Assembly (NCBI GenBank): GCA_944327845.1 | Contig: CALVHN010000001.1 | Span: forward strand, 197,149 to 261,148 | Direction of reading: 5' to 3' | Source: an uncultured Bacilli bacterium | Lineage (GTDB): Bacteria; Bacillota_I; Bacilli_A; RFN20; CAG-826 | Length of the DNA: 64,000 nucleotides | Shown: one piece after another, positions 1,470 to 63,916 of the stretch | How the letters are laid out: every line of letters starts with the position of its first letter | Numbering within the stretch: the first letter of the stretch is position 1 | The notes under the pieces: model-generated | Told to the model about the DNA's origin: nothing | The model's input: only the letters and a program-made list of their open reading frames with translations | Database searches by the model: none | Program-made: the position numbers and the translations under genes

Positions 1470-2657
1470 TTAAATACCAAAATAATTACGATAAATACAT
1501 TTATAAAATAGTGATTTTTTATTTTTATTAATTTGATCTAACAAATTAGAAAAAATATCACTTAGAAGATAATAAGAGAAAACATGGAATAATAAGAAAT
1601 TTAAACTAATATTATTGCTAAACCCTGAATAAAATAAAGATATAACAATTATTAAAGCTAACATTATGTACTTTTTTAAATTAAGTAAATTAATTAGCTG
1701 ATATGTTCTTTCATTAATTGAAAGGTATAAACTCTTTTTATTATTTACTTTGCTTTCTTCATTTATCAATGATTCATTCTTTAAAATTTCAAACTCTTTA
1801 TTTTTTGTAAGATGATTAAAAATGAAATAAAAGATAAGATTAGCAGTAATTATAATTAAAATATTTAAAATATTTAGATAAGAATTAATTGCAAGAGCAA
1901 CAAAAATTAATAATAAAGTTAAAACTGAAGAAATAATTTGGATTGGTATTAGAAAAAATGAAGATTTATATTTTGAAATATTTTGATAAAAGGTTTTTTC
2001 TTGAAAACAGTTAATTGGTAACGAATTATTGATTTCTTGATCAAATTTTTTCATTCCATAAATTGTTATTTGCTTATGCGCAAATTCTAATAAAATATAG
2101 ATAAAAAATAATAATAAAGGAACAAAGAATGGCACCTCATCATTTATGAAAAATATAGCAATTGATAGGGCTAAATAACTAAAAATTTGAAATATTGCAG
2201 AAATAACAACAATTGGTTTATCAAAAGATTTTATTTTTAAAGGTTTATAGTTAGTCTTTTTTATATCGTTAATTAATAATAATTCATTATTCCAAATTTT
2301 AAAAAAATCTTCTTCGTTAAGTTTAACTTTTCCTTTTTTTGGATCGCCAATATAGAATTTTTTACCCCTAATTTTATAAATGACATTCATATGAAGCAAA
2401 TTGTTATCTTTTACTAATGCTAAAATTGGGAATTTCTTTTCTTTATAGATATCTTCCTTATTTAAAAGACGAAATGCATTTAAAATAACACCTTCTTTTT
2501 CTGCTAAAGTTATAATATCTTTTAAAGAATAAGGATGATCTTCTTGATCTTGAGGATATAAAAGGTAGTTTTTGTTTTTGTGAACTGTGGCTAATAAAAT
2601 TTTTAAGCATGAAAACGCACAATCTTTTTCTTTAATTTGCTCAACGAAATAACTCAT
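1470..2657 (-). CDS. C39-type peptidase fused to membrane domain, no ATPase domain
   Basis: About 395 residues. Residues 1-125 look like a C39 (double-glycine leader) peptidase: Gln7, Cys13 in KDCAFSCL, His89 in LLHMN and Asp105 in GDPKKG match the Cys-His-Asp site of peptidase-containing ABC exporters such as ComA/LcnC. The rest has about five or six hydrophobic segments resembling an exporter transmembrane domain, and the protein ends with no Walker motifs. The start at 2657 is set by GGGAGGA six bases upstream; the longer reading frame to 2735 would translate the promoter. It carries the same upstream box as comEA and the Tad-like operon (see 2702-2733), so a role in competence or pilus biogenesis is inferred. 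The substrate is unknown. Confidence 0.72.
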   Translation of the reverse strand: MSYFVEQIKEKDCAFSCLKILLATVHKNKNYLLYPQDQEDHPYSLKDIITLAEKEGVILNAFRLLNKEDIYKEKKFPILALVKDNNLLHMNVIYKIRGKKFYIGDPKKGKVKLNEEDFFKIWNNELLLINDIKKTNYKPLKIKSFDKPIVVISAIFQIFSYLALSIAIFFINDEVPFFVPLLLFFIYILLEFAHKQITIYGMKKFDQEINNSLPINCFQEKTFYQNISKYKSSFFLIPIQIISSVLTLLLIFVALAINSYLNILNILIIITANLIFYFIFNHLTKNKEFEILKNESLINEESKVNNKKSLYLSINERTYQLINLLNLKKYIMLALIIVISLFYSGFSNNISLNFLLFHVFSYYLLSDIFSNLLDQINKNKKSLFYKCIYRNYFGI

Positions 2658-2701: not shown

Positions 2702-2733
2702 TAACAAGATGCAACAAATAACAAAAATTTCCC
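2702..2733 (-). promoter_or_regulatory. Shared competence-type promoter box, copy A
   Basis: On the minus strand the site reads GGGAAATTTT, nine bases, TTGCATCTTGTTA. The 13-mer (2714-2702) is identical to copies at 23426-23414 and 63897-63885, and the 10-base upstream block is at the same spacing in all three, with two differences in this copy. It lies directly behind the rpsU terminator and 44 bases before the ATG of the C39-peptidase membrane gene. It could be a promoter for an alternative sigma factor (GGTAAT as -35, GCATCT or TTGTTA as -10) or an activator site; the sequence does not decide which. Confidence 0.7.
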
Positions 2734-20833: not shown

Positions 20834-22858
20834 TTAAAAGTAATTATAAGTTATTGTTCCTTCTTTATCTGTTCTTCTTATTTTTACATCGTTATTTTCT
20901 AGAATTTTTATTACTTCTTTATGTGGATGATTATAAAAATTATTTTCTCCACATGAGATTATAGCTTCTTTTGGTTGTAATGTTTCAATAAAATTTTCTG
21001 ATGTTGATGTATTACTTCCATGGTGACCAACTTTAAGAATATCAGCTTTAAGGTTTTTAAAGTTCTTTAAAATATCTTCTTCCACTTTTTTCGATGAATC
21101 ACCCATCAACAAGAACATCACACCACTTATTTCAAAATTTAAAACTAAAGATTTGTCATTTTCATTATCATATTTATCTCTTTCAATATTTAAATCATTA
21201 AATTTAAGTTTTGTATTAACTTTTGAAATATCATCATTATTCGAAAATATATTTTTTACACAAAAATTTTCCCTTAATGATTCTAAAGCTCCATTATGAT
21301 CAAAGTCATCGTGTGTTATAAATAAATAATCAATATCATACACTCTTTCTTTTTTTAAAAACGGTATTAAAACGCTTTCTGATAAATCTTTATATTTTAA
21401 TCCTCCAGTATCAATTAAATAATTTTCAAGTCTATAGTTAATATAAATTGCATCTCCTTGACCAACATTTATAAAAGATACTTTATTAATAATTAAATTA
21501 TTTATCGGGATGCAATAAACTAACAATGAAGAACATAAAACTGGAGAAGCAAATTTTAATATTTTTTTGAAGTTTATTTCTGAAAAATAAATTAAAAATA
21601 AAACGATTAAGAAATATACTATATAACCAAATTGATTAAATGGTGGAACATTTATATCGAATTGACCAATATTGATGTAAAAAGAAAAATTTAATATCTT
21701 AAAGATAAATGTATTTATAAAACCAAAATTAATTCCATAAAATGCCGGTAATATCAACAGAAATAAAAACTTAGATAATGATAAAAATAATGAACTTAAA
21801 ATTAATCCAACAATATTTATTGAGTTATAAAATTGGATCATGAAAGGCAAAAATACACCTAATAAAATAATTTTTTTAATAAAAAATTGAGAAATCTTTT
21901 TATGCCTATATATTAATAACTGTGAAAAATTTAGTATTGTTACAATAGTAAACGGAATAATAAAAGAAAATTGAAATACATTATATGGTGAAATTAACAG
22001 AAGAATTATTCCTGTAATGGATATTATTTCAATTCTCTCAAATTTATTTTTAAGATATTCTTTATTAATTAAATTTAATAAGAAGAATATCAAAACTCTA
22101 AGTGTTGGCAATGTATTAATATTAAAAAATATAAACGGCGATAAAACTAAAAGAGCTAGCCAACTGCTTAATTTATCATTTACAAAAAAGGAAAAAACTT
22201 TTTTAAATGTATATAAAACAAAAGAAATAAATGTACCACTTAAAGCAATTAAATTTACCAATCTTAAGTCTCTGAAATTACTTTTAAGTGGATCATCATA
22301 TTTACTAGCATTAAACAGAATTGAAGATGCAAATTCTTTAACTAATGGTTCTTTAATGCGACCAAGAACTTTCTTTTTAAATAAATTAAAATTTATTGGA
22401 AAATCAAAAATAATATTTTCACTTAAAGGAACAATTTCTCTTTCTATCCCTTTATTTTTTAAATAATTTTCAAAATCAAACTCGCTTTCAAGTGTTATAA
22501 AATGTAAATCTTGTAACTCACCATTTATTTCCACACAATCAAATAAATCAATATTTTTATTCTCAGTTTTTACATAAAACGTTTCTAAACCATCATATAA
22601 AAGTAAATAATTTTCTTTTTTAGTTATTACTATGCCTTTTATATTTTCACTTTGAAATGATTTTATTGGAACATTTATAATAAATAATCCGAAGGAAAAA
22701 AATATAAGGGAAATAATCTTACATTTTTTTGAATAATTTTTATTCAAAAATAATTTTACAAAAATTATAAGCAGAAATACTATTCCAACGAAATAAGTAT
22801 CCTTATTGCATAAAATAATACCAGCAATTAACGATAAAAAATAAAGAAAAATTTTCAC
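20834..22858 (-). CDS. comEC: DNA-uptake channel protein ComEC
   Basis: Polytopic protein that forms the channel for single-strand DNA entry in natural transformation. It has 674 residues: two N-terminal helices, an extracellular OB-like part, the central competence domain of about ten membrane helices (about 180-440), and a C-terminal metallo-beta-lactamase domain. That domain has SFINVGQGDAIYI, ITHDDFDHNGAL (the HxDxDH site) and KVGHHGSNTST. All metal ligands appear present, so the nuclease-like domain is probably intact. It starts with GTG two bases after the comEA stop region and is clearly coupled to comEA. Expression is probably driven by the box at 23414-23445. Confidence 0.94.
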   Translation of the reverse strand: MKIFLYFLSLIAGIILCNKDTYFVGIVFLLIIFVKLFLNKNYSKKCKIISLIFFSFGLFIINVPIKSFQSENIKGIVITKKENYLLLYDGLETFYVKTENKNIDLFDCVEINGELQDLHFITLESEFDFENYLKNKGIEREIVPLSENIIFDFPINFNLFKKKVLGRIKEPLVKEFASSILFNASKYDDPLKSNFRDLRLVNLIALSGTFISFVLYTFKKVFSFFVNDKLSSWLALLVLSPFIFFNINTLPTLRVLIFFLLNLINKEYLKNKFERIEIISITGIILLLISPYNVFQFSFIIPFTIVTILNFSQLLIYRHKKISQFFIKKIILLGVFLPFMIQFYNSINIVGLILSSLFLSLSKFLFLLILPAFYGINFGFINTFIFKILNFSFYINIGQFDINVPPFNQFGYIVYFLIVLFLIYFSEINFKKILKFASPVLCSSLLVYCIPINNLIINKVSFINVGQGDAIYINYRLENYLIDTGGLKYKDLSESVLIPFLKKERVYDIDYLFITHDDFDHNGALESLRENFCVKNIFSNNDDISKVNTKLKFNDLNIERDKYDNENDKSLVLNFEISGVMFLLMGDSSKKVEEDILKNFKNLKADILKVGHHGSNTSTSENFIETLQPKEAIISCGENNFYNHPHKEVIKILENNDVKIRRTDKEGTITYNYF

Positions 22859-22859
22859 A

Positions 22860-23396
22860 TTAGTCGTGAAGTGTTATGTAGTTCTTACATAAATTAAATT
22901 TAGAGTTACCAATTCCAGTCACATTCATGATTGATTCAATGGTGTAGAATATTCCATTTTCATTTCGATAATCAATCAAGGATTCAGAGACAGTTTCACC
23001 AAATCCATTTAAAGTCATAAGTTCTTCAACATCTGCTTCGTTAATATTAACTTTAACAATTGGATCTTCACTACAGACATCAGTATGGTCATATTTTGGT
23101 GGAATATAATATGAATTATTTGCAACTACTTCAGCCTCAAGAAAAAAGCACCTTTCATCACCGTTTGTTGTAATCCCGCCTGCTGCTGCTAATAAATCTT
23201 CCATACATGCGCCTTCGCTTAAAACATATTCGCCAGGTTTAGCAACTTCACCTGTCACTCCAATTGTTAATGTATTATTATCATCAACAAATGTTGTATT
23301 ATCGTCTCCATGAGAAATATTTGGATCAACCATTTGAAATGCAACTAATCCAATAATCGTAACAATAGCGACAACTAAACAAATTTTTAAAATCAT
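22860..23396 (-). CDS. comEA: DNA receptor ComEA
   Basis: Membrane-anchored DNA-binding receptor for transformation. It has 178 residues: an N-terminal anchor (about 3-23), an acidic Asp/Asn/Thr-rich spacer, an SLBB-type domain (VTGEVAKPGEYVLSEGA, LLAAAGGI), and a C-terminal double helix-hairpin-helix (VNINEADVEELMTLNGFGE, IESIMNVTGIGNSKF). AGGAGG lies six bases before the ATG. It is first in the comEA-comEC pair, right after the shared promoter box and the greA terminator. Confidence 0.94.
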   Translation of the reverse strand: MILKICLVVAIVTIIGLVAFQMVDPNISHGDDNTTFVDDNNTLTIGVTGEVAKPGEYVLSEGACMEDLLAAAGGITTNGDERCFFLEAEVVANNSYYIPPKYDHTDVCSEDPIVKVNINEADVEELMTLNGFGETVSESLIDYRNENGIFYTIESIMNVTGIGNSKFNLCKNYITLHD

Positions 23397-23413: not shown

Positions 23414-23445
23414 TAACAAGATGCAAAAAGTAGGTAAAAATTACC
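23414..23445 (-). promoter_or_regulatory. Shared competence-type promoter box, copy B (comEA)
   Basis: Minus-strand GGTAATTTTT, nine bases, TTGCATCTTGTTA. The end of the box is 17 bases before the comEA ATG. The upstream block is identical to copy C (63907-63916) and the 13-mer is identical in all three copies. It overlaps nothing but the tail of the greA terminator T-tract. Because comEA is a known competence gene, this copy gives the box its likely meaning. Confidence 0.8.
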
Positions 23446-58105: not shown

Positions 58106-58693
58106 TTAGTATATTATTAGATTATTATCTAATTTTAGATTCCAAATATTGATAAAACCATAAATATTAATATATCCATGTTTTAAATTACCTATTTGTA
58201 TTTTAAATTGATCTAATTCATCATTAGTATCATTTTTAATCATTATACGATCTACTTTTAAAATATCTTTTAATATTTCTTCAATTTTTTTATCAAAATA
58301 TATTGAATATTCATTTTCCGTTTTCAAAATTTTAAAATATTCATTGATAGAAAGCATATCAATATCATATTTTTTTAAGTAAATCTCTTCATCCCCATTA
58401 TCAATAAGTGGATTGTAGTCAAAATTGAAATAGATATTAAAGTCGACTTCTTCTTCGAATTTTGAACCATCAAGATTATATAATTTAAAGAAATGCAATG
58501 TTTTAAAATCAAACTTTGTAGAATAAACATCTTTTTCTATTTTCATTTTAAAATCATCGTGACTATAATCTACAACAAAGCCTATTTTGCTATTATTTCT
58601 TTTTCCTAACACAATAAGTAATGTTGCACTTATAGGAATGAGTATAGCAAAAACTGAAGTTAAAATTAGAATTTTTGAATAATTTTTATTCAT
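58106..58693 (-). CDS. Membrane-anchored protein, last gene of Tad-like operon
   Basis: Unrecognised 195-residue protein. A short Lys-containing start is followed by one hydrophobic helix (residues about 8-29), and the rest is an exported acidic domain with many Asp, Glu, Lys and aromatic residues and no Cys. The layout (N-terminal anchor, beta-rich body) resembles a minor pilin or assembly protein. It starts at the stop of the preceding gene (TAATG) and closes the eight-gene operon. Downstream, the inverted repeat AATATACTAA/TTAGTATATT (58063-58113) brackets its stop codon and has no clear T-run. Confidence 0.6.
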   Translation of the reverse strand: MNKNYSKILILTSVFAILIPISATLLIVLGKRNNSKIGFVVDYSHDDFKMKIEKDVYSTKFDFKTLHFFKLYNLDGSKFEEEVDFNIYFNFDYNPLIDNGDEEIYLKKYDIDMLSINEYFKILKTENEYSIYFDKKIEEILKDILKVDRIMIKNDTNDELDQFKIQIGNLKHGYINIYGFINIWNLKLDNNLIIY

Positions 58694-59655
58694 TAAAACA
58701 CTATGGTAGTTTCATCAAGTTCTAATGATTGGACAGCAACAGAAGTATCAAATTTACATTTAATTGTATCTTCTTTATTTTTTGTAGAAACCTTAAATGT
58801 CATTGTTTGCTTTCCTAACATTGAAATATATTCATCAATAGTAACATCACTTTTTTTATCCCATTCCATATCTCCATAAATATTGAGGTATGAATATTGT
58901 ACCCATCCATAATCCTTAACATTGCTTAATAGCCATGATCTCAAACTTTCTTTTGAGTAAGATGTTGATGAATTAACTAATTCTTTAAAATACTTATTTA
59001 CAGCTGATAAATTATATTCTCCTCTTTTCGATTGTATATCTACCTTATAATTTTGTAATTCAACAAAAGAATATTCATATTTATAGTCATAATCTTTTGT
59101 AAATACATCAGAATATGTAACGTCATGACTAACTAAAACTTTCTCATTATTTTTAATTAAAATATTATCTTCAGTTTTTCCGTTTACACTAACTGATAAT
59201 GCTTCAATTTTCTTTTCATACTCTAATGAACAAAGGCCAAATGCTTCTTCATTATCAAGTGCTACTGCTTTTACAATGATTTTTTCACCAAATGCTTTTT
59301 TACAAACAAGTGTAATAGCTAAAGTATCAGTTGTTGTTGATTTAATTTCGACAAATTCTGATACATCTTTATTTCTTGCAAAATCAGATGATGGATCATT
59401 CCAATATATACTCCATTTAATTGTTTTATATGTGGCATCACTAGGTGTTATAGTCGCTTTTAATGAATATGTATTTTCATCAATTTTCTTTAATAAAATA
59501 TTTGTTGAATTTGATATATTTAATCCACCAAATTCATCAACGTATGTAGTATCAATTTTTTTATGTAAATAAATACCTAATGTTGAAATTCCCCCTAATA
59601 GTAATAAACCTGCGGTTGCTAAAATAATTATTTTCTTTTTGTTATTATTAAACAT
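58693..59655 (-). CDS. Membrane-anchored Ig-like (Big-type) protein of Tad-like operon
   Basis: A 320-residue protein with an N-terminal anchor (Lys-rich start, helix about 9-30). Residues about 60-150 look like a bacterial Ig-like domain: SLKATITPSDATYKTIKWSIYW is typical of Big-type repeats in surface proteins. The rest is beta-rich with no catalytic motif. AAAGGAGG precedes the ATG. It lies between the TadE-like gene and the last gene and is presumably exposed on the surface as part of the apparatus or as an adhesin. Function is inferred from context. Confidence 0.6.
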   Translation of the reverse strand: MFNNNKKKIIILATAGLLLLGGISTLGIYLHKKIDTTYVDEFGGLNISNSTNILLKKIDENTYSLKATITPSDATYKTIKWSIYWNDPSSDFARNKDVSEFVEIKSTTTDTLAITLVCKKAFGEKIIVKAVALDNEEAFGLCSLEYEKKIEALSVSVNGKTEDNILIKNNEKVLVSHDVTYSDVFTKDYDYKYEYSFVELQNYKVDIQSKRGEYNLSAVNKYFKELVNSSTSYSKESLRSWLLSNVKDYGWVQYSYLNIYGDMEWDKKSDVTIDEYISMLGKQTMTFKVSTKNKEDTIKCKFDTSVAVQSLELDETTIVF

Positions 59656-59667
59656 GACTTCCTCCTT

Positions 59668-60006
59668 TTAATTGTAATATTTAATAACTGCAAATCTTTT
59701 AATGATTAGATTTTGTTTTTTGTTTAAAGTTAATGGATAAATTTCCTTTTTTAAATAAAATTCAAATAATTGACCATCTTCTATAATTTCATCTTCTACT
59801 GTATATAATTCTGCATCAACTTTTTCTTTTACAAACTGCTTTAGTTCAGATGATATTGTTCCGTTTTTTGAAATATTTTCACTGACAAAAGTCGATATTG
59901 AATCTAAAGAAATATAAGTTAATTGAACATGAATTAAATCAATTCCAAAAAGAAGAATTAGAAAAACTATAGGTAAAGTTAAAATAAAACCAATTTTAGA
60001 ACGCAT
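59668..60006 (-). CDS. TadE-like minor pilin
   Basis: 112 residues. The short start MRSKIGF leads to a hydrophobic helix (ILTLPIVFLILLFGIDLIHV), like the TadE/TadF signature in which a helix ends in FGI/LEL. The rest is a small exported domain. It lacks the G-x4-EY Flp cleavage site, so processing by a TadV peptidase is not predicted. It overlaps the TadC-like gene by eleven bases. The best guess is a pseudopilin of the Tad-like system. Confidence 0.62.
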   Translation of the reverse strand: MRSKIGFILTLPIVFLILLFGIDLIHVQLTYISLDSISTFVSENISKNGTISSELKQFVKEKVDAELYTVEDEIIEDGQLFEFYLKKEIYPLTLNKKQNLIIKRFAVIKYYN

Positions 60007-60664
60007 TATTGATATCTCCTATTAAGAAAATTATTGAATATATTAAAATAACAAACAATATTCCAATACCAACCAAACTCAAGGCATTAATAAAATCAAT
60101 TTTTCTATTGTTAATTTTTGTATATTTTTTATAAGTAGAATCACTCAGTCTATCCATTAATTGATTAAACCTAATTAAGCTAGCTTCATTAATTCCTTCT
60201 TCCAAAAACCAATAAATAGAAATAAATGCTTCATCAATCATTTGATCATTATACCTATGTGAAATATTTAAAAATGGTTCAATTGTTCTATCGTTTTTAA
60301 TATTATCAAACAAAGTTATTAACTGTTCTTTTGTTTTAAAAGAAGCATATTCTTTTAGATTTTCAAGAGATTTATAAATATTCTCACTATTATTTAAAGA
60401 TACTTTAAAAAGATTTAATAAGTTTATAACTTCAAGTTTTGAAGCCAAATTATTTTTAGTTTTCAAAAAGTCATATCTTTTAAAAAATATAAAATTTGAA
60501 GCAAGTAAAAGTAATACAAAAATTATCCCGAATAAATAACTTTTTAAAAATAATATTGATATAAGTACGCCAAATATAAATAATATGTTAATTACTATTA
60601 ACTTTCCTATTTCTCTTTGTAAATTTAAATTTAACTCGTTTATTATTTGTTTGAACTTTTTCAT
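59996..60664 (-). CDS. TadC-like membrane platform protein
   Basis: About 222 residues. Two hydrophobic hairpins lie near residues 18-55 and at the C-terminus (about 198-220), with a cytoplasmic helical region between them (FKVSLNNSENIYKSLENL, FLNISHRYNDQMIDEAFISIYWFLEEG). This is the T2SS F / TadC layout. The ATG at 60664 has AAAGGAAAC upstream; the frame extends to 60691 only through a TTG. The gene overlaps the end of the TadB-like gene by 77 bases in another frame. Confidence 0.62.
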   Translation of the reverse strand: MKKFKQIINELNLNLQREIGKLIVINILFIFGVLISILFLKSYLFGIIFVLLLLASNFIFFKRYDFLKTKNNLASKLEVINLLNLFKVSLNNSENIYKSLENLKEYASFKTKEQLITLFDNIKNDRTIEPFLNISHRYNDQMIDEAFISIYWFLEEGINEASLIRFNQLMDRLSDSTYKKYTKINNRKIDFINALSLVGIGILFVILIYSIIFLIGDINNAF

Positions 60665-61376
60665 AATTATTGTTTCCTTTAAGGTAATCAAAATTTGTGT
60701 AATTTTTTATAAATAGTATTAAAGAAAAAATAAAGAAAACATTGAAACCAAAGATTGAAATTGTATAGAAATCATAACTTATGATCTGATTAAAATAGTT
60801 AAATAAAGAAAATCTTAAAACAACTAAAATTAAGTAAATTAATGACCATAATCCAATAAATTCCATACTTCTTGTTTGTTTATTATTTTCATTTTTTAAT
60901 AAATTTAGTTTTTCTTTATCGAGTAAGATTAAATATTCATTTGATATTTTTAAAATATTTCCGCCTTCCTCATAGTATTTTTTTACAATTTTTGAAAAAT
61001 AATTATAGAGATTAAAATTAAAATATTTTTCTAGCTCTTCTATTTTTTCAACTTCATTTAAACTTAGCATCATTTCATTTTGCTTTTTTAATTCATCATT
61101 AAAGCCAATAGAAATCTTTTTATATGTGTCTTTAAGGCTGTTGCTTATGCTTAAATTTAATAAAAAATCTCTTATAAAATTAATTCCATACATTGTTCTT
61201 TGATAATTGTCTTTATAATCAATAATATTTTTTCTTAGCATTACAAAATAAGGGATAATAAATAAAGTTAATAAAATTGCTGAAAATATAATACTTTCAG
61301 TTATTAAAAAATTAATAAATGATATTCCGATTGCACTTAGAAAATAATATATTGAAATTTTATCTATTTTTTTCAT
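60588..61376 (-). CDS. TadB-like membrane platform protein
   Basis: About 262 residues. N-terminal helices (about 8-48) and C-terminal helices (about 170-225) enclose a cytoplasmic helical core (FIRDFLLNLSISNSLKDTYKKIS ... LNEVEKIEELEKYF ... KKYYEEGGNILKISNEY). This matches TadB/T2SS F inner-membrane platform proteins. The tail after the last helix is Asn/Lys-rich and overlaps the next gene. The ATG at 61376 overlaps the ATPase stop (TAAAATG); a GTG three codons upstream is possible. Confidence 0.65.
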   Translation of the reverse strand: MKKIDKISIYYFLSAIGISFINFLITESIIFSAILLTLFIIPYFVMLRKNIIDYKDNYQRTMYGINFIRDFLLNLSISNSLKDTYKKISIGFNDELKKQNEMMLSLNEVEKIEELEKYFNFNLYNYFSKIVKKYYEEGGNILKISNEYLILLDKEKLNLLKNENNKQTRSMEFIGLWSLIYLILVVLRFSLFNYFNQIISYDFYTISIFGFNVFFIFSLILFIKNYTNFDYLKGNNNYEKVQTNNKRVKFKFTKRNRKVNSN

Positions 61377-62386
61377 TTTACCCACTCTTCTTTTATTTTT
61401 TCCTTTCCAGAATCATCAACACTTAGTAAATTCAATAAACCCTTAGGAATACTTCTATATTTTTCTGAGTATTTATAAATTTCATAGATTTTTTCTTTAT
61501 AATTGGTTACTAATGAATAAATTTTTGATAAACCATCAATTCTTTTTAAAGTGATAATTAATTTAAAAGAATTAAAAGCACCAATTAAAGCTTCAGAATA
61601 TTTCATATTGGAATTATTTAATAAAATTAATCTAGCTAATTTATCATATGTGTTAATTCCATCTTTTGAGGAAAAAGTCCCAATAATATTAATTCCAGAA
61701 AGAGAACAGTTAATCAAAAATTCTACATCATTTAAACTTATATCATTAAAAATTAACCGATCTGGAGTAAGTTTCCTTGCCTCCTCTAAAAGACTTTTTG
61801 AAGAATTAATTTTATTGTCATCAATTGTCCAAAAACGTAAATTAAATTTATCTAAAAGATCATTAGAAAAGAACATTTTCTTTTCTCTTTCTAAAATAAC
61901 AAGCTCAGAATTTAAAGGAAGTTGACTGATTATAAATTTTAAAAATTCTTTTTTACCACTTTCATTTTCTCCACATATTAGTAAAGAATTTTTGTTTGTT
62001 AAATAACTTTTTATTAGATTTAAACACTTTGTTTCAATATTATTTAAATCATAATCTAACATTTCAGGATAGATTTTTATTTTAAAATTAAAGTTTTGAT
62101 TATTCCTTGAACAAACTGAATAATGAATGATATAAAACAAAAAATTCTCAATATTAAAATTTAAAAACGGGTTATTTTTATTTATTTCATTATCTGTAAA
62201 ATTAATTATTTCTCTTACAAAAGTATCAATTTCTTTTAATGGAATTTCCTCATCATATTTTTTATTAACACCATTAAAATCTTTATAAAATAATTTATCT
62301 CCATTGAATGAAATTTCTTTTACTTTCATTGAAATCAATGGTTTTAAAAAAGAATTATTTATATAATCAATTGCTTTATTGTTCAT
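61373..62386 (-). CDS. Degenerate TadA/CpaF-like secretion ATPase
   Basis: 337 residues with the VirB11/TadA fold order. The N-terminal part has KVKEISFNGDKLFYKD. The P-loop is CGENESGKK (138-146), with Lys where Thr/Ser is required. The Asp-box region is VILERE. Walker B LTPDRLIFNDIS (206-217) matches the usual RPDRIIVGEVR but has Asn-Asp for Gly-Glu, and the His box (TTIHAN) reads GTFSSK. Inference: nucleotide binding or hydrolysis is impaired, or the protein uses an unusual mechanism. The start overlaps the previous gene; GGAG is nine bases upstream. Confidence 0.7.
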   Translation of the reverse strand: MNNKAIDYINNSFLKPLISMKVKEISFNGDKLFYKDFNGVNKKYDEEIPLKEIDTFVREIINFTDNEINKNNPFLNFNIENFLFYIIHYSVCSRNNQNFNFKIKIYPEMLDYDLNNIETKCLNLIKSYLTNKNSLLICGENESGKKEFLKFIISQLPLNSELVILEREKKMFFSNDLLDKFNLRFWTIDDNKINSSKSLLEEARKLTPDRLIFNDISLNDVEFLINCSLSGINIIGTFSSKDGINTYDKLARLILLNNSNMKYSEALIGAFNSFKLIITLKRIDGLSKIYSLVTNYKEKIYEIYKYSEKYRSIPKGLLNLLSVDDSGKEKIKEEWVK

Positions 62387-62789
62387 AAATTAAATCTCCG
62401 ATTGAAAATGTTAAATATTTTTCTAGATTAAGATTAAAAAAATACTTTGTTTTAAAATGAATTTGAACATTTTTTGGATAATCATTTAAATCAATCTTAA
62501 TTTCATTGTTTTCATTTACTGTATAATAAAAGAAACTAATTTGATATCTTGAAACTTTATTTTTTAAATTAAACTTCAAATAATTATTAACATTATTTTT
62601 AAGCGAATTTTTGTCAAAATATCCTTCAATAGTGTCGCTATTATCAATTATAAATACACTCTTTTCAATTAAACCTAAAGGAATTGTAGAAACTATCCTT
62701 TCAATGGTTTCATACTGAATTTGAATTAAAAATATTGAAAAAAATTGTAAAAATATCAATGAAACAATAAAAACAGAAAATTGTTTCAT
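62376..62789 (-). CDS. Pilin-like membrane-anchored protein
   Basis: 137 residues. The N-terminus is MKQ followed by a long hydrophobic helix (about 4-24), then an exported domain of about 110 residues with few features. The layout is that of a TadE/TadF-like or minor pilin, but I see no processing motif. It starts within the stop of the 361-residue gene (ATGA overlap) and overlaps the ATPase gene by eleven bases. Function is inferred from context. Confidence 0.58.
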   Translation of the reverse strand: MKQFSVFIVSLIFLQFFSIFLIQIQYETIERIVSTIPLGLIEKSVFIIDNSDTIEGYFDKNSLKNNVNNYLKFNLKNKVSRYQISFFYYTVNENNEIKIDLNDYPKNVQIHFKTKYFFNLNLEKYLTFSIGDLIYEQ

Positions 62790-63871
62790 AGAATCACAGT
62801 ATCAAAGAAATTATCTTCAATTACTTTTTTATGATCTCCTATAATTTCAAAACAATTTTCAATAAATAATTTATTCATTTTTATTCGAAAAATATAATGA
62901 ATACTTGCTTTACTTTTCCCTAAATTATCAATTTTTAAACAATGATAAGTATTACTAAATGTTGAAAAATATTTTTTAGGAAAATAAATCGTTTTAACCT
63001 TTTGATTAAAAGATTCAGTTCTATAAAGACTCATTTCATAAGTCTTTTCATTTAAAAAAATATCATTCTTAACTTCTAGTTCAATTAAGCCATCATCATT
63101 AATAGTTTTTAATTCTAATCCATTAAAATTAAATTCAGAGTTAAAGTTTAAAGGCAAATAACTTATTAAATAGTTATTAAAATCACAAACATAATAATAC
63201 ACTTTTCCATTAAACTCTTCGCCTTTATTAAAAGTATATTTAATTTTAATTTCATCTAAAGGTACACTACGATAAAGATCATAAGTTAATAAATCATCAA
63301 CGCCCAAAATTGATAATTTTTCATATCTTTCTATTATCTTTTTACTATTAAGCAATACCTCATAATAGATCTTAAAATCAGTTGTTGGCATTTTAATTGA
63401 ACGATTCGTAAGAGAATGAATTTTAAATGTGAAGGAATAGAGATTTAAATCATTTTTATAAAAACTTATCTTGAAATTTAATAGACCTTTTAAAACATGC
63501 AAACCAAGATCAAGATTAATATTTATTGAACCAGTTTTTAAATCAACGCCTTTAAATTCATTATATAAACCAGGAATATTTAGCTTATTATATGTTTTGT
63601 TTGACTCGTTTGTTACCTCAAATTCAATTCCGTATTTTGCATCTTCATCAATTTGCTTTGAGTTTACTTTGAATCTAGATAATAATCCATCATTAGAGAA
63701 ATTAGTATTATTTATTTTAAAGTTTTCAAAGTACAATTCATCAGACATATTAATATCATTAACAGTTTCTAATATTTCTTCATTTGAAAGCTTGCCATAT
63801 ATTAAGGGGGATTTTAAGGGGATTAAAGCAAAACATCCGAATGTTAGAAAAGTTAATAATTTAAATCTCAT
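62786..63871 (-). CDS. Secreted beta-rich protein, first gene of Tad-like operon
   Basis: Unrecognised 361-residue protein. Residues 1 to about 26 form a signal peptide (MRFKLLTFLTFGCFALIPL), and the mature part is beta-strand-rich with repeated Phe/Tyr/Asn patterns and no second membrane helix. It may be the external component (tip or channel-associated protein) of the Tad-like apparatus. AGGAGG lies six bases before the ATG. It is the gene directly behind promoter box C. Confidence 0.6.
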   Translation of the reverse strand: MRFKLLTFLTFGCFALIPLKSPLIYGKLSNEEILETVNDINMSDELYFENFKINNTNFSNDGLLSRFKVNSKQIDEDAKYGIEFEVTNESNKTYNKLNIPGLYNEFKGVDLKTGSININLDLGLHVLKGLLNFKISFYKNDLNLYSFTFKIHSLTNRSIKMPTTDFKIYYEVLLNSKKIIERYEKLSILGVDDLLTYDLYRSVPLDEIKIKYTFNKGEEFNGKVYYYVCDFNNYLISYLPLNFNSEFNFNGLELKTINDDGLIELEVKNDIFLNEKTYEMSLYRTESFNQKVKTIYFPKKYFSTFSNTYHCLKIDNLGKSKASIHYIFRIKMNKLFIENCFEIIGDHKKVIEDNFFDTVIL

Positions 63872-63884
63872 TTTTACCTCCTAA

Positions 63885-63916
63885 TAACAAGATGCAATTA
63901 GTTCAAAAAAATTACC
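63885..63916 (-). promoter_or_regulatory. Shared competence-type promoter box, copy C (Tad-like operon)
   Basis: Minus-strand GGTAATTTTT, nine bases, TTGCATCTTGTTA. The upstream block and the 13-mer are identical to the comEA copy. The box ends 13 bases before the first operon ATG and four bases before AGGAGG, so the 5' leader must be very short if the -10 lies in the 13-mer. Confidence 0.78.

Follow-up and report, generated by a model that had tools for sequence, protein, structure and literature searches.

Competence pili of the Tad type are already known. In Micrococcus luteus, the Tad/Flp genes are required for transformation (PMC4322843), a precedent cited in a sequence-only reading of the DNA described here and confirmed in the literature; in that organism there are two tad clusters, the motors are intact, and a Flp pilin and a TadV peptidase are present (PMC4322843). 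In Bacillus and Streptococcus, the filament machine under the competence regulon with comEA-comEC is the ComG pilus. Bulleidia extructa PP_925, a member of the Bacillota with a reduced genome, carries comG together with a tad locus of 13 genes, of which tadV is the first (PMC12786226). In the Caulobacter CpaF/TadA motor, residues T288, E312, R347, E357, and R223 act at the nucleotide site, where they coordinate Mg or nucleotide (PMC12019362).

The window, i.e., the whole stretch of 64,000 nucleotides analysed here, comes from an uncultured gut bacterium of the Bacilli with a very small genome (assembly of 1.135 Mb, nine contigs, 97% complete) and contains a Tad-like operon. The likeness to M. 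luteus is that a Tad-type machine appears to be tied to ComEA/ComEC in a genome that lacks any further genes for type IV filaments (PMC4322843). The differences lie in a single minimal operon, the lack of an A24 peptidase, and a promoter box common to the com genes; the window copy, in addition, has a motor stripped of catalytic residues, and no Flp pilin. As with the ComG pilus, a filament machine seems to be placed under the competence regulon with comEA-comEC; the ATPase, however, is of the TadA/VirB11/GspE2 branch and not ComGA, and no ComC-type prepilin peptidase accompanies it. In contrast to B. extructa, there is no filament system beside the Tad-like operon, which lies within the predicted competence regulon. 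What is new is the use of a Tad-like machine in comG-less Bacilli, the co-drifting promoter box, the missing prepilin peptidase, and a motor without catalytic residues; the open-access literature yielded no report of such a competence system in comG-less Bacilli or of a catalytically stripped motor. The reading that we favor, and consider probable, is that in the relatives a Flp-like pilus has replaced ComG and works without the usual peptidase, and that in the window genome this machine has been remodelled into a static complex that would hold DNA.

Architecture of the operon and its relatives

Eight intact ORFs, overlapping or abutting, occupy positions 58106-63871 on the minus strand, as had been read from the sequence. 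The first encodes a secreted protein of 361 amino acids (62786..63871), whose closest relative is in genome G007 (E 2e-46), and is followed by genes for a 137 amino acid pilin-like protein (62376..62789), a 337 amino acid TadA/VirB11-type ATPase that has lost its catalytic residues (61373..62386), TadB-like and TadC-like platform proteins of 265 and 222 amino acids (60588..61385 and 59996..60664), a 112 amino acid TadE-like protein (59668..60006), an anchored protein of 320 amino acids, judged by eye to be Ig-like (58693..59655), and a last anchored protein of 195 amino acids (58106..58693). Single-sequence Pfam searches of these proteins gave almost no matches because the proteins are very divergent; the Ig-like protein was among those without a match.

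The names proposed earlier for these proteins held to different degrees. The ATPase assignment is solid: the protein matches the VirB11/TadA NCBIfam models TIGR02788 (5e-16) and TIGR03819 (3e-4), and a profile of its 33-member family found PDB chains of GspE2, VirB11, and CpaF at 2e-31 to 9e-25, with Caulobacter CpaF aligned across the whole core (E 9e-25; PMC12019362). The TadB-, TadC-, and TadE-like names are weaker, being based on weak profile matches and gene position. Two members of the TadC-like family match T2SSF (PF00482, best 1e-4), and the TadB-like family, with a helical model, is homologous to it by profile (hhalign 96%, E 1.7e-9); the TadE-like protein matches PF07811 below the cut-off (E 0.017) and has orthologues in 38 of 40 fetched loci, and one relative's protein matched a TadF model at 0.0014. 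"Pilin-like" is apt for the predicted shape of the 137 amino acid protein, which resembles that of a minor pilin (a long N-terminal helix and a small alpha/beta domain; pLDDT 92.8) and has relatives in 34 of the 40 loci, but no major Flp-type pilin is found in the operon or genome. A PDB fold search gave no significant match for either the pilin-like or the TadB-like model.

The ATPase has relatives in 66 of the 115 genomes searched (the window genome included), mostly from the same family; in a scan of genome contigs, the family alignment recovered relatives and the single protein none. Gene order across the 40 fetched loci is nearly constant (secreted, pilin-like, ATPase, TadB-like, TadC-like, TadE-like), and in nearly all of them a short protein beginning MSEIKGQLLG(I/V)xLV follows TadE. 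It resembles a pilin of the Flp type but lacks the usual G/XXXXEY processing site. A profile of this protein had no match in the window genome at E up to 1, although in an assembly that is 97% complete it could be missing. In the window operon its place is filled by the unrelated 320 and 195 amino acid anchored proteins, neither of which has relatives in the other operon loci. Upstream of the secreted-protein gene, many relatives outside the genus encode a protein of 99-128 amino acids with conserved WW and YYR-K-AM motifs; it had no Pfam match but by eye is like a sigma/ArpU-type regulator.

A promoter box common to the operon and the competence genes

The box GGNAA-N14-TTGCATCTTGTTA has three matches in the window, where 0.08 were expected, all on the minus strand. 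One lies before the Tad-like operon (63885..63916; GGTAATTTTTTTGAACTAATTGCATCTTGTTA); the box search placed the others before comEA-comEC (23414..23445) and before the gene for a C39 peptidase (2702..2733). The box that the operon was said to have in common with comEA-comEC is thus real, and the C39 gene also has one. Also on the minus strand, comEA (22860..23396) encodes SLBB and HHH domains (PF12836 1e-17, PF10531 1e-9) and comEC (20834..22858) matches PF03772 (1e-9) and PF00753 (3e-11). Allowing up to two mismatches, the genome holds 11 sites. Behind the boxes are comEA-comEC, comFA-comFC, dprA, rpsF-ssb-rpsR, recA after cinA, and the Tad-like operon, together with a small peptide gene and radC, a RecX-like gene, two ABC transporter genes, a gene without known function, and the C39 gene. 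The two ABC transporter genes at L052:740-5613 (ATPase fused to an FtsX-like permease) follow a perfect box, as does a gene at L050:1042-1536 for a 164 amino acid protein that had no match in Pfam.

In relatives from the genus, the box varies from species to species, yet within each genome the boxes match. Mean within-genome promoter similarity was 17.7, compared with 11.5 when genome labels were shuffled, and the observed value was reached in none of 5000 shuffles. It is because promoters match within genomes that the operon is assigned to competence, and this is the strongest evidence that we have. Judged from these promoters, the genes behind the box form a predicted competence regulon that includes the Tad-like operon, in the window genome and across the genus.

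ComG, prepilin peptidase, and ComEC

The sequence-only reading had seen no comG-type genes in the window; this now extends to the whole assembly (97% complete) for the comG-type ATPase, of which there is almost none in relatives either. No T2SSE match exceeded the cut-off in the window genome, where a single sub-threshold P-loop match was seen elsewhere. The same assembly, from which a second ATPase could be missing, revealed no other VirB11/TadA ATPase, the operon gene being the sole match, and no match to PF01478 (ComC-type prepilin peptidase). Strong PilB/ComGA-type ATPases (>400 bits) occur in only 5/115 genomes, and the same five hold an A24 peptidase over the cut-off. These are genomes G005, G022, G076, G089, and G109, among which only G005 and G022 also carry the Tad-like operon. 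A TadV/A24 prepilin peptidase is absent from the window genome and from 64/66 operon carriers, and therefore the Tad-like machine would run without a canonical prepilin peptidase nearly everywhere.

When counted by family profile, comEC is present in 112/115 genomes (PF03772 gave an under-count, 78/115). It is found in 65 of the 66 operon carriers, the exception being a genome that is 69% complete, and 47 genomes have comEC but not the operon. The operon is therefore not frequent in genomes lacking comEC, but this co-occurrence, proposed earlier as a check, has little weight because comEC is nearly universal in the order, and the argument is carried by the promoters. A separate pattern was seen in families f3, f4, and f5 of the order: ComEC is present, and in nearly all genomes no filament ATPase exceeds the cut-off, except that PilB types occur in G089 and G109. 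This hints that ComEC can work without a pilus.

The motor ATPase has lost most of its catalytic residues

The window ATPase retains only 29 of 77 columns that are invariant in 20 genus relatives, and every other ATPase of the genus keeps at least 93% of them. Its neighbors keep 12/27 (TadC-like), 10/16 (TadB-like), 11/13 (TadE-like), and 5/6 (pilin-like) invariant columns, and ComEC of the window genome, in its own alignment, keeps 51/51. Residues affected in the ATPase (window numbering) include Thr146 of Walker A, Glu170 of the Asp-box, and Arg205, all changed to lysine. Asp has replaced Glu215 of Walker B and Ser has replaced His239, and where relatives have Arg41, Arg83, and Arg104 the window protein has Asn, Leu, and Lys, respectively. 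The Walker A threonine, Walker B glutamate, Asp-box glutamate, and arginine fingers are invariant in 32 relatives. By alignment and spacing, Thr146, Glu170, Arg205, and Glu215 are equivalent to CpaF T288, E312, R347, and E357, and Arg83 probably corresponds to R223. The window ATPase is thus predicted to be without residues needed for ATP hydrolysis. The P-loop glycine and lysine are still present, and some nucleotide binding is possible.

Loss on this scale raises the question of whether the operon in this genome is a remnant in decay, left behind after loss of the pilus, with reading frames that have simply not been broken so far. Many conserved columns have gone from both the ATPase and the TadC-like protein, the Flp-like pilin is missing, and the genome is reduced, all of which would be expected of decay. 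Yet none of the eight frames is interrupted, in DNA with a G+C content of 25.5%, the box still matches those of other competence genes, and the TadE-like and pilin-like proteins keep most of their conserved columns. Furthermore, neutral simulations with the G007 gene as starting point broke the ATPase frame in every run, even when only 15% of residues had changed. So simple a simulation is no proof of selection, but the open frame makes plain decay less likely, and we consider this explanation improbable, if still worth weighing, beside that of a remodelled, static complex.

The double-glycine peptide and the C39 peptidase

The C39 peptidase (1470..2657, minus strand; PF03412 1e-19) has membrane segments and no ATP-binding domain, and residues C13, H89, and D105 are present. 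Relatives are found in 82/115 genomes, and in several of these its promoter resembles the tad promoter. The small peptide linked to radC (L049:1089-1268, plus an upstream start; located outside the window, at about 152.1 kb of G000:C1) also has a competence box, and being in the same regulon it is a second new component. Besides a leader of the double-glycine type, it has a single hydrophobic helix and a tail with the pattern PGG(F/W/Y)xF; the leader ends in Pro-Gly in the window genome and in Gly-Gly in many relatives. In 26 of 30 loci from across the order, the peptide gene was found close to radC, and an NCBIfam class IIb bacteriocin model matches some members. The C39 enzyme may cut this peptide, although detection of the one tracks the other imperfectly. 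Both occur in families without the operon, and hence they are not considered to be Tad parts. The peptide was also rejected as a replacement for the Flp pilin, as it is present alongside that pilin and in families that have no operon.

A broader proposal is that in this lineage DNA uptake has been rebuilt on another route of maturation, with the C39-cut peptide working together with ComEA/ComEC and the Tad-like machine of the window serving as a motor-free DNA holder; we regard this as a tentative and rather unlikely extension. Somewhat less credible still is the proposal made from the sequence alone, that the window genome makes a Tad-type competence pilus that works in full; the altered residues would then be functional, or a further ATPase would assist, and some other small protein would act as pilin. 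Such a pilus would fit the open frames, the intact box, and the retention of most conserved columns by the TadE-like and pilin-like proteins, and the genome does encode a small helical peptide behind a copy of the box. However, the Walker A threonine, Walker B glutamate, Asp-box glutamate, and arginine fingers have all been replaced, the window genome yielded no further ATPase of the TadA type, and the distribution of the peptide in Flp-pilin-bearing relatives and operon-less families does not suit a substitute pilin. A dynamic pilus is unlikely in this genome because both a catalytic motor and the Flp-like pilin are lacking.

A static complex in the window genome

A Tad-like competence pilus remains the best reading for the operon family in this lineage of Bacilli with reduced genomes. 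In the relatives, a short Flp-like pilus would be made along with the DNA-uptake genes, and its subunits would be displayed or moved so that DNA is brought to ComEA and ComEC; the Tad-like machine would thereby stand in place of the ComG pilus, with no usual prepilin peptidase. The claim that a Tad-type machine serves as the DNA-uptake pilus consequently fares well for its Tad-like nature, its membership of the predicted competence regulon, and the lack of a comG ATPase, but not for the window copy as a working pilus. In the window genome, where the hydrolysis residues of the motor and the Flp-like pilin have gone and two unrelated anchored proteins occupy the position of the pilin, the operon more likely specifies a static surface complex. 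Membrane-anchored and composed of the secreted, pilin-like, TadE-like, and Ig-like parts, it would hold DNA near ComEA/ComEC. That it is made at all is suggested because the competence box is still intact; that the genes are expressed, that they act in DNA uptake, and that a static complex forms are all things that we infer from sequence. If the species is wall-less, there would be no wall to cross, and the cell could do without a pilus motor.

That the operon encodes an adhesive or other surface structure merely co-expressed with competence is very improbable: most studied Tad pili do serve adhesion (PMC4322843), and the box also fronts the ABC transporter genes and the gene without known function, but most of the box genes belong to the core set for DNA uptake and recombination, the match between promoters holds across the genus, and most genomes are without any other filament ATPase.

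The favored reading, a Flp-like competence pilus in the relatives and a static complex in the window genome, would provide a concrete case of a Tad-type machine at the place taken by the ComG pilus in other Bacillota, with a promoter code that changes between species as its backing. It also suggests that in this filament system the pilins escape maturation by the usual peptidase. The window genome may also be seen as a natural experiment in which a competence-linked motor has lost its catalytic residues while its genes are still open, and the contribution of a pilus to DNA uptake thereby becomes testable, above all if the cells are without a wall.
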